From Winogradskyella bathintestinalis (GTDB lineage Bacteria > Bacteroidota > Bacteroidia > Flavobacteriales > Flavobacteriaceae), in the NCBI RefSeq assembly GCF_030407435.1, contig NZ_JASDDK010000002.1, positions 652,702 to 716,701 on the forward strand: 64,000 bases of DNA, read 5' to 3'. The notes below the pieces were generated by a model. That model saw only the letters and a list, made by a program, of their open reading frames with translations. It was not told where the DNA came from and ran no database searches. The position numbers and the translations under genes were made by a program. This document shows positions 2,455 to 7,968 of this stretch, piece after piece; positions within the stretch are counted from its first letter, which is position 1, and every line of letters starts with the position of its first letter.

Positions 2455-2546
2455 ACGTTTTTTATAGTTGGAAAAACAGATAAAACACACCTTTTAACAA
2501 CTATAATTTATTAAGTTTGAAAGCTACTATAAATCAATATTTTAAT

Positions 2547-4304
2547 ATGAAAAAACTCTTATTTCTAGTCTTAATGATTTGTTCTTGTACTGACAAACCA
2601 GAGAAACAAGATGAAGCTTCTAAAAACGATACTGTTGATTTTACAACCACATTCGAAAAATCACAAGGACTCGAAACAGCTACCTACCAAGAAACCATCG
2701 ATTATTTTTACAATTTAGCAGAGTCCTATGCTGAAATTTCAATTCAAACCATTGGGGAGACTGATTCTGGTAAACCATTACATATAGTAACTTTAAACAT
2801 GAATGGTTCTGGTGATAATTTTGAAGAATTAAGAGAGAACAACCGCATTTTATTAATAAATAACGGCATACATCCTGGAGAATCTGATGGCATAGATGCG
2901 ACCATGATGCTGTTTAGAGATATGGTTAATGGTAAAATCATTCCGCCGAAAAACACGGTTATTGTTACGATTCCGATATACAATGTTGGTGGAAGTTTAA
3001 ACCGAAATTCTACCACAAGAACAAATCAAAACGGTCCGAAATCATACGGGTTTAGAGGTAATGCTAAAAATTATGATCTCAATCGCGATTTTATAAAATC
3101 GGATACCAAAAACGCTAGAACTTTTGCTCAAATTTTTCATTTGGTACAACCTGATGTTTTTATCGATAATCATGTTAGTAACGGGGCAGACTATCAGTAT
3201 ACCCTAACTCATTTGTTTACACAACACAACAAATTGGGCGGGCCACTTGGCCACTTTATACATTCTGAAATGATGCCAACATTAGAACAAAAATTAAAAG
3301 CCAAATCATGGGATATTACACCTTATGTTAACGTATTCAATCGCACACCAGATTCTGGATTTACGCAATTTATGGATTCTCCACGGTATTCAACAGGGTA
3401 CACCACCCTGTTTAATACTTTAGGTATGATGATAGAAACGCACATGCTTAAACCTTACAAACAACGTGTAGAAGGCACTTACGAATTAATGAAAAGTATG
3501 ATTGAAATTACAGATGAGCACGGAGCTGAAATTTCGGAACTTAGAAATAATCAAAGTCAACTTTGGTCCTATGGAAAATCATATCCAATTGCTTGGTCTG
3601 TTGATACTACTAAAACCTCAACATTACTATTTAAAGGTTACGAAGGTGAAATGACACCTAGTGAATTCACCGGTGCAAAACGTTTAAAATACGACCGAAC
3701 AAAACCTTTTACAAGAGACATTATTTATAACAATTATTTTAGGGCAACGGATTCTATTAGCATCCCAAAAGCCTATATCATTCCTCAAGGTTGGCACGAG
3801 GTTATTAATTTATTGAAGTTGAATAATGTGGAATTCAAACAATTTAAAACGGATACGACATTAACAGTTGAAGCCTATAAAATTGGAGCTTTTCAAACCC
3901 GAACATCTCCATATGAAGGTCATTATGCACATTATAACACTACTGTAAATTCTTCGAGTAAGAATATGAAATTTAGAAGCGGAGATTATTTAATCTATAC
4001 CAACCAAAACGCTATTCGCTACTTATTAGAAACTTTAGAACCGAGCGCGACAGATTCGTTTTTTAACTGGAATTTTTTCGATACTATTCTTCAACAAAAA
4101 GAAGGATTTTCACCGTATGTTTGGGAAGATAAAGCTGAACAATTGTTAAAGAACAACCCAAAACTTCAAATGGAATTTAACGTAAAAATTAGCTACGACG
4201 AAGATTTTGCTAATAACTGGTATGCGCAGTTAGATTGGTTGCATAAACAAAGTGAATATTATGAAACTGCTCATATGCAATATCCTGTTTATAGATTAAA
4301 ATAG
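2547..4304 (+). CDS. Exported M14-family zinc carboxypeptidase (probable lipoprotein)
   Basis: Zinc metallopeptidase of family M14, expected to trim C-terminal residues from peptides outside the cytoplasm. Zinc ligands are seen as HPGE (His 109, Glu 112) and DNHVSNG (His 209); a substrate-binding NRD sits at about 179-181 and the catalytic Glu is in MIETH (Glu 297). I chose the ATG at 2547 rather than an in-frame TTG at 2517 because it gives a clean signal peptide ending in a lipobox-like ICSC with Cys 14. The total is 585 residues, with about 280 residues after the catalytic domain that I cannot assign. It precedes the amide-ligase operon in the same direction, but a 176-base gap and a separate promoter argue against cotranscription. 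Export also separates it physically from those cytoplasmic enzymes. Confidence 0.85.
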   Translation: MKKLLFLVLMICSCTDKPEKQDEASKNDTVDFTTTFEKSQGLETATYQETIDYFYNLAESYAEISIQTIGETDSGKPLHIVTLNMNGSGDNFEELRENNRILLINNGIHPGESDGIDATMMLFRDMVNGKIIPPKNTVIVTIPIYNVGGSLNRNSTTRTNQNGPKSYGFRGNAKNYDLNRDFIKSDTKNARTFAQIFHLVQPDVFIDNHVSNGADYQYTLTHLFTQHNKLGGPLGHFIHSEMMPTLEQKLKAKSWDITPYVNVFNRTPDSGFTQFMDSPRYSTGYTTLFNTLGMMIETHMLKPYKQRVEGTYELMKSMIEITDEHGAEISELRNNQSQLWSYGKSYPIAWSVDTTKTSTLLFKGYEGEMTPSEFTGAKRLKYDRTKPFTRDIIYNNYFRATDSISIPKAYIIPQGWHEVINLLKLNNVEFKQFKTDTTLTVEAYKIGAFQTRTSPYEGHYAHYNTTVNSSSKNMKFRSGDYLIYTNQNAIRYLLETLEPSATDSFFNWNFFDTILQQKEGFSPYVWEDKAEQLLKNNPKLQMEFNVKISYDEDFANNWYAQLDWLHKQSEYYETAHMQYPVYRLK

Positions 4305-4416: not shown

Positions 4417-4449
4417 TTGTAAAACCAATCAAAAAATAATATACATTTG
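4417..4449 (+). promoter_or_regulatory. Bacteroidota-type promoter of the amide-ligase operon
   Basis: TTG at 4417-4419, a 22-base spacer, then TACATTTG at 4442-4449, matching the TTTG/TAnnTTTG pattern of the primary Bacteroidota sigma factor. The start codon is 32 bases downstream, and a short GC-rich inverted element (AGCG...CGCT, 4464-4476) lies in the predicted leader. Confidence 0.65.
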
Positions 4450-4480
4450 TATAAAATATAAATAGCGTAACGCGCTCTAA

Positions 4481-5926
4481 ATGAACAAATACATTGTTGT
4501 AAATCAGCCTGAAAAATGGAATTTTTCAATTGATAACATCACCGTAATTTCCTCACAAGATTATCTTACTAACCCAAAGTATTCCTTATTAAAAAATGCA
4601 CGAATTTTCAATTTGTGCAAGGATTACTCATACCAATCAAAAGGATATTACGTGTCACTTTTGGCAGAGGCCAGAGGTCATTTACCAATACCGACCACAA
4701 AAAATATAGTGGACCTTAAAACTTTAAAACTCGTTAGAATCGTATCAGATGAGTTTGATGATGTCATTCAGCAAAGCTTAAAAAATATAAAATCGCAAGA
4801 TTTTACTTTAAGTATTTATTTTGGTCAAAACGTCGCTCAGAAATATAAAAACTTGAGTGCGTTGTTTTACAAGCATTTTCAAGTGCCATTTTTACGGGTT
4901 AATTTTAATCATACCACAAAATGGAACATTCAAAGTATAAAAGCGATTTCAGAATCTGAAATTCCAGAAGAACATATATCTAGTGTACACTTATTTGCTA
5001 ATCAGTACTTTTCAAAAAAACGTTACGATACGGCGAAGGTGGCAAATTACGATTTTGATTTGGCTATTTTGGTCAACCCTAACGACCCAGCACCTCCGAG
5101 CAATTCCAAAGCCTTAAAAAAGTTTGTGGAAATTGCAGAGAAGATGAATATTTACACCGAAATTATTGAACCCAAAGATTTAACTCGGCTATCTTCTTTT
5201 GATGCGCTTTTTTTAAGACAAAGCACAGAAGTGAATAACGAAGCTTACATGTTCGCTAGAAAAGCACAACAAGAAGGGATTGCCATTATTGATTATCCAA
5301 ATGCGATTTTAAGATGTTGCAATAAGGTGTATATGGCAGAAGCGATGAATAACGCTAATATAAGTACACCAAAAACTGTTATTGTACATAGCAATAATAG
5401 AAATTCGGTACTAGATCAAACAGGGTTACCTTGTGTTTTAAAAGCACCCGATTCTACCTTTTCTTTTGGTGTTAAAAAAGCAAAAAATAAAGAAGAATAT
5501 GATGCATTGGTTACTGAGATGCTAAAAGAATCAGATTTAATCATTGCCCAAGAATTTTGTCCTTCAGATTACGATTGGCGCATTGGCATAATTGACAACA
5601 AACCGTTTTATGCTTGTAAATATTATATGGCCAAAGGCCATTGGCAGATATATAATTGGAAGGCTAAAGATAAGAACGATCAAGATGGTAATGCAGATTG
5701 TTTACCAATGGAAGATGTTCCAAAAAATGTTATTGATATCGCTTTAAAATCTGCCAAACTAATGGGGTTGGGACTTTATGGTATTGACATAAAAGTGGTG
5801 GACGACAAACTTATGGTTATAGAAATCAACGATAACCCAAATATTGATTTTGGCGTGGAAGATGCACATTATGGGGATTTGGTATATATGGAAATTCTTT
5901 CCGCTTTAAAAAAACGATTAGATTAA
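4481..5926 (+). CDS. RimK-like ATP-grasp ligase with RLAN N-terminal domain
   Basis: Predicted carboxylate-amine ligase that joins an amino group to an acyl-phosphate made with ATP. The 481-residue protein has an N-terminal alpha/beta region of about 190 residues resembling the RimK-like ATP-grasp N-terminal (RLAN) domain, a preATP-grasp segment (about 190-270) and an ATP-grasp domain (about 275-478). The latter shows a nucleotide lysine region (VLKAPDSTFSFG) and the metal-binding motif VIEINDNPN (Glu 448, Asn 450). The ribosomal S6 modifier RimK is about 300 residues, so this is a different subfamily. It is first in an operon; the GCS2-like ligase starts 3 bases after its stop. The product is unknown: a small peptide, a modified amino acid or a protein tail are all possible. 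Confidence 0.85.
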   Translation: MNKYIVVNQPEKWNFSIDNITVISSQDYLTNPKYSLLKNARIFNLCKDYSYQSKGYYVSLLAEARGHLPIPTTKNIVDLKTLKLVRIVSDEFDDVIQQSLKNIKSQDFTLSIYFGQNVAQKYKNLSALFYKHFQVPFLRVNFNHTTKWNIQSIKAISESEIPEEHISSVHLFANQYFSKKRYDTAKVANYDFDLAILVNPNDPAPPSNSKALKKFVEIAEKMNIYTEIIEPKDLTRLSSFDALFLRQSTEVNNEAYMFARKAQQEGIAIIDYPNAILRCCNKVYMAEAMNNANISTPKTVIVHSNNRNSVLDQTGLPCVLKAPDSTFSFGVKKAKNKEEYDALVTEMLKESDLIIAQEFCPSDYDWRIGIIDNKPFYACKYYMAKGHWQIYNWKAKDKNDQDGNADCLPMEDVPKNVIDIALKSAKLMGLGLYGIDIKVVDDKLMVIEINDNPNIDFGVEDAHYGDLVYMEILSALKKRLD

Positions 5927-5929
5927 AAC

Positions 5930-7171
5930 ATGGCTAAAAAATATCACTTATTCGAAGTTTACGGGATTGAACTTGAATATATGCTCGTTAAAAACGATAC
6001 GCTTAAAGTTGCACCACAAGTAGATGAATTACTAACTCGAAAAGCGGGACATTTAAAAGCCGATATAGAAAATGGTGACATAGCCTGGAGTAACGAATTA
6101 GTGGCGCATGTTCTTGAACTAAAAACAAATGGCCCAGCCGAAAGCATAGACAATCTCTCTGATAAATTTCATGCCAATATTTTGGAGATTAACACTCTAT
6201 TGCAACCGTTAAGAATAGGACTTTTAGGTACAGCATCGCATCCGTTAATGAATCCTAACACTGACACACAACTTTGGAAACATAGCTATAGTGAAGTCTA
6301 TGCGCTTTACAACACTATTTTTAATTGTAAAGGTCATGGATGGAGCAATGTGCAAAGTACGCATATCAACTTACCATTTTATAACGATAAGGAATTTGAA
6401 AAACTACATGCGGCCATTCGTATTATCTTACCATTATTACCTGGCCTATGTGCTAGCTCCCCAATTTTAGAAGGGCAAATCACAGGCTTTAAAGATACGC
6501 GTTTAGAGTTTTATAAGACGAACCAAAAAGAAATTCCTGAATTAACCGGATTGGTAATTCCTGAGCGCACATTCTCCAAGTTAGACTATTATGCAACCGT
6601 TTTCGAACCTATAAAACACGCAATTAAACCTTACGATAAAAACAAGATTTTGGACCAACATTTTCTAAATTCTCGCGGTGCAATTGCCCGTTTTGACCGT
6701 AATGCTATAGAAATTCGTTTAATGGATATTCAAGAATGTCCTAAAGCGGACATTGCTATTTGTGCTTTGGTCATCGAAGTTTTAAAAGCATTGGTCAATA
6801 AAGAGTTCTGTACGCTTCAAGTTCAAAAACAATGGACCAAAGAAGATTTGTTCATTATTTTAGATGACGCTATTAGACATGGTGAAAACTCTATGATAGA
6901 AAATATAGAGTTTTTAAAATTATTCGGTTTGAATATATCTGCAACAATCAATCATATTTGGAAACAAATGTACGAAGCTGTAAAATCGAAATTGCACAAA
7001 TCTCATCATCAACCGATTGAATTAATCCTAAAAGAAGGTACCCTCGCTACACGGTTATTGAAAGCCGTAGGCAATGACACTTCAGAAAAACATATCGTTT
7101 CAGTATATCGTCAACTTCAGGATTGTTTAAAGACTAATACGCTGTTTCAAGTAAAAAACGACGATAACTAA
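5930..7171 (+). CDS. GCS2-family glutamate-cysteine-ligase-like carboxylate-amine ligase
   Basis: Glutamine-synthetase-fold ligase of the GCS2 type, which makes an amide bond on a glutamate or similar carboxylate at the cost of ATP. The 413-residue length fits the family. Visible marks are the N-terminal strand with GIELEYMLV (Glu pair in the metal site), the substrate-loop region STHINLPF, and the C-terminal segment RFDRNAIEIRLMD. With only 3 bases between this gene and the ATP-grasp ligase, the two are translated from one message. True glutathione synthesis would need GshA plus GshB; the neighbour is not GshB-like in its N-terminal half. A glutathione substitute or another gamma-linked compound is therefore possible, but this is inference. 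Confidence 0.82.
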   Translation: MAKKYHLFEVYGIELEYMLVKNDTLKVAPQVDELLTRKAGHLKADIENGDIAWSNELVAHVLELKTNGPAESIDNLSDKFHANILEINTLLQPLRIGLLGTASHPLMNPNTDTQLWKHSYSEVYALYNTIFNCKGHGWSNVQSTHINLPFYNDKEFEKLHAAIRIILPLLPGLCASSPILEGQITGFKDTRLEFYKTNQKEIPELTGLVIPERTFSKLDYYATVFEPIKHAIKPYDKNKILDQHFLNSRGAIARFDRNAIEIRLMDIQECPKADIAICALVIEVLKALVNKEFCTLQVQKQWTKEDLFIILDDAIRHGENSMIENIEFLKLFGLNISATINHIWKQMYEAVKSKLHKSHHQPIELILKEGTLATRLLKAVGNDTSEKHIVSVYRQLQDCLKTNTLFQVKNDDN

Positions 7172-7197
7172 AATTCGAAATCTAAGAGATACTCATA

Positions 7198-7229
7198 TAA
7201 CTGCGCCGCACTCGTGCTGAGCGCAGTTA
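7198..7229. repeat. GC-rich inverted repeat inside the ligase operon
   Basis: Perfect 9-base arms TAACTGCGC (7198-7206) and GCGCAGTTA (7221-7229) around a 14-base loop, in an otherwise AT-rich 92-base spacer. Imperfect AAATTCGAAATC-like sequences flank it on both sides. There is no T-run after it, so it is not an obvious terminator; it could be an RNA processing or stabilising hairpin, or a short palindromic repeat element. I saw no second copy in the window. Confidence 0.6.
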
Positions 7230-7263
7230 AGGTTTGAAGTTTGAAATTCGATAGATAAAATAT

Positions 7264-7968
7264 ATGAAACTTATTTTAACTTGTGAACATGGTGGTAATA
7301 CTATTCCTGACGCTTACGAAAAACATTTTAAAAATCAGACGGTTTTAAAAACACATCGAGGTTATGATTTGGGTGCTTTAAATTTGTTTCAGTACGTAAA
7401 ATCATTATCAGATGACGCCTATTTTAGTACTACAAGCCGTTTATTAATAGAGCTAAATCGTTCTTTGTACCACAAACAACTGTTTTCTGAATTTACAAAG
7501 CATCTGCCCAAAGAGGATAGAAGTGAAATTATAAAGCATCACTATTTACCTTATAGAACTCAGGTAGAACATAAAATCCGTAATCATATTGAAAATGGCG
7601 AAGCGGTTCTTCATTTATCCATGCATAGTTTCACTCCGAAATTACAAGGAAAAATTAGAAACTGTGATATTGGACTACTTTATGATTCTACTAAAAAGAA
7701 AGAAAAGCAATTTTGTAAATTGTTTAAGACTGAACTTTTAAAACAAGATTCAGACCTCAATGTAAGATTTAATTTTCCCTATTTAGGAAAAGCAGATGGT
7801 TTTACAACGTATTTGCGAAAACAATTTCCGAATAATTATTTAGGTATTGAGATAGAGGTTAATCAGAAATTTGTAGTGAATGGTGTTTTAAACCTTTCGA
7901 TGAAACAGACGTTCTTCAAAACAATGGAACGACTAACCACTATGAGCTCTTCTTTTCTAAAACATTAA
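7264..7968 (+). CDS. N-formylglutamate amidohydrolase family protein
   Basis: Zinc-dependent amidohydrolase-like protein of the N-formylglutamate deformylase family. It has 234 residues with the N-terminal signature LTCEHGGN (zinc His 9), the SRLLIELNRS segment and a HLSMHSF motif that would supply further ligands. The classical role, the last step of histidine degradation, is unlikely because no hut gene is nearby. Family members also occur in predicted amide-ligase gene clusters, which is the context here. It is separated from the GCS2 gene by 92 bases containing an inverted repeat, so its expression could be uncoupled from the first two genes. The substrate is probably an N-acyl or peptide product of the preceding ligases (inference). 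Confidence 0.82.
   Translation: MKLILTCEHGGNTIPDAYEKHFKNQTVLKTHRGYDLGALNLFQYVKSLSDDAYFSTTSRLLIELNRSLYHKQLFSEFTKHLPKEDRSEIIKHHYLPYRTQVEHKIRNHIENGEAVLHLSMHSFTPKLQGKIRNCDIGLLYDSTKKKEKQFCKLFKTELLKQDSDLNVRFNFPYLGKADGFTTYLRKQFPNNYLGIEIEVNQKFVVNGVLNLSMKQTFFKTMERLTTMSSSFLKH

Follow-up and report, generated by a model that had tools for sequence, protein, structure and literature searches.

The RLAN–GCS2–FGase operon of Winogradskyella bathintestinalis: a conserved amidoligase cassette with a possible role in making and unmaking a small capped amino-acid compound

Introduction

Clusters in which an ATP-grasp ligase of the RLAN type is tied to a second, unrelated amide-forming enzyme and to hydrolase partners were reportedly predicted as amidoligase clusters by Iyer, Abhiman, Burroughs and Aravind in 2009. 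The subject of this report is a three-gene operon of Winogradskyella bathintestinalis (Bacteroidota; Flavobacteriaceae), which encodes an RLAN/RimK-type ATP-grasp ligase, a GCS2-family ligase and a hydrolase of the FGase (N-formylglutamate amidohydrolase) family. It lies in a 64,000-nucleotide stretch of contig NZ_JASDDK010000002.1 (assembly GCF_030407435.1, positions 652,702 to 716,701, forward strand); the whole stretch is referred to as the window, and its coordinates are counted from its first letter. A predicted amidoligase cluster is an operon, kept in relatives, that joins an ATP-grasp ligase to hydrolases and to another enzyme forming amides, and the present operon has all of these features. 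A 2015 paper of the Aravind group cites the 2009 work for operonic pairs of amide/peptide ligases (PMC4431377). No account of the operon, its product or the partner exchange set out below was recognised in the available portions of the open-licence literature, PMC4431377, PMC2922099 and PMC10033563 included, and one could still be in print.

Among described ligases, RimK, LysX and ArgX share with the operon ligase the fold of its ATP-grasp half and an aligned C-terminal motif, whereas the operon enzyme carries an additional N-terminal RLAN domain, scores under the RimK-family cut-off and belongs to a cassette with neither an S6 nor a LysW partner gene. YbdK-type GCS2 ligases and plant glutamate-cysteine ligase share the fold of the operon GCS2 protein across 349 and 362 residues, respectively, but are 14–16% identical to it. 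GCS2 enzymes of established activity acylate via the γ-carboxylate of glutamate, FGase enzymes of established activity cleave the amide of an acyl-glutamate, and GNAT enzymes acylate an amine or similar group from acyl-CoA. The N-acetylglutaminylglutamine amide gene trio combines a GNAT with an ATP-grasp ligase, as do GNAT-type relatives of the operon, whereas the window has GCS2 at the place of the GNAT. An identical gene order (RimK, GCS2, N-formylglutamate amidohydrolase) is present in Legionella adelaidensis (NZ_LR134436.1), where all three genes share a strand as in the window and the frames overlap, but this cassette is from a different phylum, its GCS2 is 45% identical and its annotation is at family level only. 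The Legionella record itself is a 9-kb 'plasmid' that also carries fur, bamE and dapF, and is maybe a chromosomal fragment.

We read the operon as a complete unit that both builds and dismantles a small amino-acid compound bearing a cap, a reading to which we give slightly short of an even chance of being correct.

Gene content and protein families

The operon lies in a 3.8-Mb genome (G000), and the nearest named relatives of its RLAN protein are from Winogradskyella. Three open reading frames were found where the original prediction had placed two distinct carboxylate-amine ligases and a hydrolase, and Pfam matches over cut-off and conservation as one unit bear this assignment out:

4481–5926, + strand: RLAN/RimK-type ATP-grasp ligase gene (481 amino acids; RLAN domain at about residues 26–167, RimK/LysX-type ATP-grasp half at about residues 190–481)
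5930–7171, + strand: GCS2-family (YbdK-like) carboxylate-amine ligase gene (413 amino acids)
7264–7968, + strand: FGase (N-formylglutamate amidohydrolase) family hydrolase gene (234 amino acids)

The stop codon of the RLAN gene and the ATG of the GCS2 gene are separated by 3 bases, the gap that had been claimed. The RLAN protein has the RLAN domain (PF14401, 163 bits against a cut-off of 25) followed by an ATP-grasp module, matched by Dala_Dala_lig_C (41 bits, cut-off 24) and RimK (38 bits, cut-off 21). Its ligase half is nearest in fold to LysX, ArgX and RimK (residues 189–481 in the fold list), while a PDB sequence search with residues 1–190 gave no credible match. Residues D436, K438, E448 and N450, in a region profile-aligned to PDB 3vpd, are invariant in 39 rows and are presumed to be those with catalytic roles in ATP-grasp enzymes. 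The protein nevertheless falls well under the models for RimK proper (NF007764, 30.9 bits against 331), the RimK family (TIGR00768, 72.6 against 143.4) and GshB (NF009110, 29.5 against 408; NF003573, 25.8 against 272), in agreement with the earlier view that this ligase is not GshB-like.

The GCS2 protein matches PF04107 over cut-off (97 bits), has the GCS2 fold and shares six conserved polar positions with the genome's own second, YbdK-like GCS2. It scores under the cut-offs of the NCBIfam glutamate-cysteine ligase models listed, and γ-Glu-Cys formation may be regarded as a candidate activity. The second GCS2 (215 bits; L186:6465-9660, contig C23) is flanked by a 394-amino-acid protein with no Pfam match over cut-off and by a class-I glutamine amidotransferase-like protein. 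The hydrolase matches PF05013 at 73 bits (cut-off 28.9) and PDB 2odf at E 8e-14, and its polar core (H9, H31, D35, R59, N65, R66, H121, E196 and E198) is invariant in 24 rows; it is far below the HutG (N-formylglutamate deformylase) model TIGR02017 (17.3 bits against 278.75). Among the matches listed (25 of 27 for the RLAN protein), none of the three proteins attains an NCBIfam model at the model's own cut-off, and therefore no specific enzyme name can be taken from the models. An FGase-family gene is grouped with an ATP-grasp ligase at two places in this genome, the operon and a second similar cluster (L185:6634-12623, contig C31), which has two GshB-like ATP-grasp genes in the order GshB-like ATP-grasp, rhodanese, 110-amino-acid protein, FGase-family protein (49.9 bits), MATCAP/DUF1704 metallopeptidase and GshB-like ATP-grasp.

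Comparison with three relatives gave non-synonymous distances (dN) of 0.04–0.08 for RLAN, 0.11–0.23 for GCS2 and 0.22–0.35 for FGase, against synonymous distances (dS) of about 1.8 or more that are at or near saturation. Purifying selection therefore acts strongly on each of the genes, and FGase evolves fastest.

The same gene content bears on a glutathione-like low-molecular-weight thiol as product, for which GCS2 would make γ-Glu-Cys, the ATP-grasp ligase would add a third residue and FGase would degrade conjugates. GshB-like genes elsewhere in the genome favour it (four matches to glutathione synthetase TIGR01380, all under cut-off, two of which carry Pfam GSH-S over cut-off), but the genome also encodes BshC of bacillithiol synthesis, the one Bsh protein looked for, and GshA of the PF04262 kind has no match in it, in a search with a positive Escherichia coli control and with GCS2-family kinds of GshA outside its scope. 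A thiol of this type is considered very improbable, and BshC likewise weakens the 'glutathione substitute' of the original prediction. Plain glutathione, already thought unlikely there, is rejected as the operon product on ligase fold, family cut-offs and gene content; its presence in the organism itself is possible in view of the GshB-like genes elsewhere.

Conservation of the gene neighbourhood

The original prediction was to be refuted if the three genes were rarely neighbours in relatives, and a neighbourhood survey found the opposite. Of the named loci (the best 80 of at least 555 confirmed in genomes of GTDB species), 79 have RLAN before GCS2 and 75 have FGase after it. Loci L026, L053, L096, L100 and L101 are those without FGase; L053 stops just past GCS2, and L101, the sole locus without RLAN, covers only about 830 bases before GCS2. 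When 198 genomes were sampled evenly across the phylum, 16 had the operon-type GCS2, and in every one of these RLAN stood directly before it. Within the window's family the GCS2 gene was found in 37 of 299 genomes, and in 29 further family loci RLAN adjoins it in every case and FGase in 28, the remaining locus ending just past GCS2; seven more family carriers yielded no locus. The three genes are thus one conserved operon. Locus L026, from Brumimicrobium glaciale, lacks FGase while its RLAN and GCS2 are 90% and 77% identical to those of the window, a closeness at about the level seen within Winogradskyella; this oddity may reflect either a recent transfer or a contaminated contig.

Partner exchange beside the RLAN ligase

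The RLAN ligase was surveyed in 395 genomes of the phylum (thresholds of E up to 1e-30; 8–13 kb inspected around RLAN), the family and phylum of sampled genomes being assigned from the window's nearest named relatives. It is present in 43 of them, 30 with GCS2 nearby and 13 with a GNAT; none has both and none has neither. In 12 of the 13 GNAT-type genomes the GNAT is fused to RLAN, and in one (G155) it is part of a GNAT-C39 protein. The exclusion was first noticed on 23 genomes, and the 20 added later (14 GCS2, 6 GNAT) conform without exception; named loci and sampled genomes partly overlap, with at least one pair (G640, L071) among these 20. The GNAT profile was built partly from counted loci (7 of the 13 GNAT genomes gave rows), so that a GNAT unlike those rows could escape it; the later 20 genomes contributed no GNAT row, and the rows of this and the C39 profile have no internal stop. 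In one sampled genome (G179; L193:5273-8160) GCS2 and RLAN are each split into two overlapping frames, as by sequencing errors or decay.

The hydrolase follows the same division, with FGase near RLAN in 21 of the 30 GCS2-type genomes as against none of the 13 GNAT-type genomes. Whole-genome searches at E 1e-8 found no FGase in any of the 13 GNAT-type genomes, nor in any of the nine GCS2-type genomes that have none near RLAN (both controls positive), using a profile that covers the operon subfamily, such that other PF05013 proteins could be present.

A fourth cassette gene, overlooked in the original prediction, encodes a C39-like cysteine peptidase (Pfam Peptidase_C39_2) directly before RLAN outside the window's family. 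It is present in 26 of the 30 GCS2-type genomes, including all 26 outside that family, by a profile to which four of the 26 C39-bearing genomes gave rows. Among the named loci, the 11 most distant include 9 with this gene, and the other 69 none. For the window's family, whole-genome searches covered 28 of the 38 known carriers and detected the gene in none of them (3 of 3 controls positive). In the PDB the protein has weak relatives, at E 0.0014, among C39 peptidase domains of the ComA type. Other recurrent neighbours reach at most 18 of the 80 named loci, and almost all of these are restricted to subsets of flavobacterial loci.

Similar arrangements occur outside the phylum. In Azospirillum a GNAT-C39 (DUF3335) fusion stands before RLAN, in Tistrella a GNAT-bearing frame does so in the same way, and in Aeromonas a GNAT frame lies immediately before RLAN on the opposite strand. 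A tree of 48 RLAN rows has at least three changes between GNAT and GCS2, and bootstrap trees have two to three; the RLAN proteins of G155 and Aeromonas are on very long branches. Family f22 contains both types, and so does one genus (g353), with a GNAT-RLAN fusion in G511 (L268) and C39-RLAN-GCS2 in G668 (L267); the RLAN of G668 is one of 14 GCS2-type rows that form a well-supported clade, and that of G511 falls outside it. The exclusion is a firm description, behind which stand few independent events.

Proposed function and alternatives

The RLAN ATP-grasp enzyme would convert a carboxylate to an acyl phosphate and couple it to an amino group, in the manner of LysX, ArgX and RimK. GCS2 would activate a second carboxylate, most likely the γ-carboxylate of glutamate, and attach it to a free amino group of the compound or its precursor. 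As GCS2 occupies the place of the GNAT, and GNAT enzymes acylate amines, GCS2 probably acylates the same amine, and its γ-glutamyl cap would replace the acetyl group that a GNAT beside a similar ligase may give elsewhere. FGase would then hydrolyse an acyl-glutamate or γ-glutamyl amide bond of the GCS2-made form, leading to release, recycling, uncapping or finishing, and its restriction to the GCS2 form fits the hydrolysis of acyl-glutamate amides by that family. The C39-like enzyme could contribute an extra cleavage or transfer in most sampled GCS2-type genomes, while the window's family would manage without it. The cap could be lasting, or a protecting group taken off the final product. The operon would then probably yield an amino-acid compound that bears a single RLAN-made amide and a single γ-glutamyl cap. 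The 'γ-linked or N-capped' product suggested in the original prediction is better grounded through the exclusion of GCS2 and GNAT. From these families and their neighbourhoods we infer the substrates of all the enzymes, the direction and order of the steps, and a small-molecule rather than a protein product.

Several observations weigh against this reading. Fold and family leave the substrates unfixed, and the exchange of caps would rest on co-occurrence. Well-supported branches of the RLAN tree force just one change of type, and because the g353 RLAN genes fail to group in the tree, that genus may have exchanged a whole cassette rather than one partner. A plasmid record of Pseudomonas aeruginosa has RLAN with neither GCS2 nor GNAT within 4 kb, and the exclusion is therefore not universal beyond the phylum. 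Operon-type FGase is missing from 9 of the 30 GCS2-type genomes, and thus is not essential. Moreover, LysX, ArgX and RimK act on proteins, which suits a protein-modifying system at least equally well.

Under reversible protein modification, the two ligases would attach amino acids, glutamyl or others, to the end or a side chain of a protein, and the C39-like enzyme and FGase would remove them; RimK acting on S6 and PafA acting with Pup are analogues. The resemblance of the RLAN ligase to enzymes working on protein ends speaks for it, and genus g353 makes it slightly likelier and the cap-exchange readings slightly less so, but a scan of 75 named loci showed no carrier gene next to the cassette, and overall we consider it unlikely. 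The same 75 loci showed no conserved small-peptide gene in the 1.2 kb before RLAN or the 1 kb past the last gene, a verdict drawn from the 14 largest clusters of small open reading frames, and a free small substrate is therefore mildly favoured. A ribosomal peptide substrate was rejected, as those 14 clusters resemble fragments or shadows of adjacent genes.

A compatible solute like N-acetylglutaminylglutamine amide, in marine or saline Bacteroidota, is improbable. Most named carriers are presumably from marine or saline genera, and the version with GNAT and ATP-grasp is, we assume, similar in gene logic to that osmolyte's; against this, some carriers are from what we take to be desert or soil genera (Nafulsella, Sabulibacter). 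Within the family, a salinity proxy also showed no difference when 20 of the 37 carriers were set against 32 non-carriers (median isoelectric point, P 0.31; net charge, P 0.83). The proxy is weak, being protein charge and isoelectric point from one 20-kb stretch per genome, and non-carriers are perhaps often marine too; 40 non-carrier stretches were taken, of which 8 with fewer than 8 open reading frames of 150 amino acids were dropped, and part of the non-carriers were defined by absence from the full carrier list of the family search.

A wider reading, to which we give about one chance in three, can be put forward more tentatively. The RLAN ligase may be the central enzyme for a broadly distributed class of dipeptide-like metabolites whose N-terminal cap is swappable, acetyl (from GNAT) or γ-glutamyl (from GCS2), the γ-glutamyl form often having a dedicated FGase uncapping hydrolase and, in sampled GCS2-type lineages, mostly a C39-fold cysteine hydrolase or transferase too.

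Promoter, spacer and flanking genes

Two non-coding elements accompany the operon:

4417–4449, + strand: putative promoter, with TTG (4417–4419), 22 bases, and TACATTTG (4442–4449)
7172–7263, + strand: hairpin-bearing spacer of 92 bases between GCS2 and FGase (AACTGCGC...GCGCAGTT)

The pair of TTG and TACATTTG matches what we take to be the Bacteroidota −33/−7 promoter consensus. When the window is aligned with 11 relatives, all 12 rows keep TAnnTTT and 9 keep TAnnTTTG, but only 4 keep the upstream TTG; the 'clear promoter' of the original prediction is therefore borne out at the −7 box and to a lesser degree at the −33 box. The spacer hairpin (7160–7275 folded) has a folding energy of −23.4 kcal/mol and a z-score of −1.95, with 6 of 200 shuffles folding equally well. 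A comparable spacer is missing from 71 of the 75 FGase-bearing named loci, whose FGase frame opens no more than 10 bases from the GCS2 end or overlaps it. The hairpin of the window might decouple expression of the hydrolase.

Upstream, positions 2517–4304 of the window encode a 595-amino-acid protein with an HPGE motif, M14 carboxypeptidase-like by eye, which lacks any Pfam match at E 0.01 and has a relative in 18 of the 80 named loci. A CtlX citrulline utilisation hydrolase, above its NCBIfam cut-off, is encoded on the − strand at 1492–2424.

Biological significance

The GCS2 gene is carried by about one in eight of the family genomes sampled, and the RLAN ligase by about one in nine of the phylum genomes sampled. 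The rule of GCS2 or GNAT predicts a γ-glutamyl compound in some species and its acetyl counterpart in others, and such a pair would be searchable by comparative metabolomics. If the reading is true, FGase-family proteins, which take their name from histidine breakdown, would acquire uncapping as a further function.

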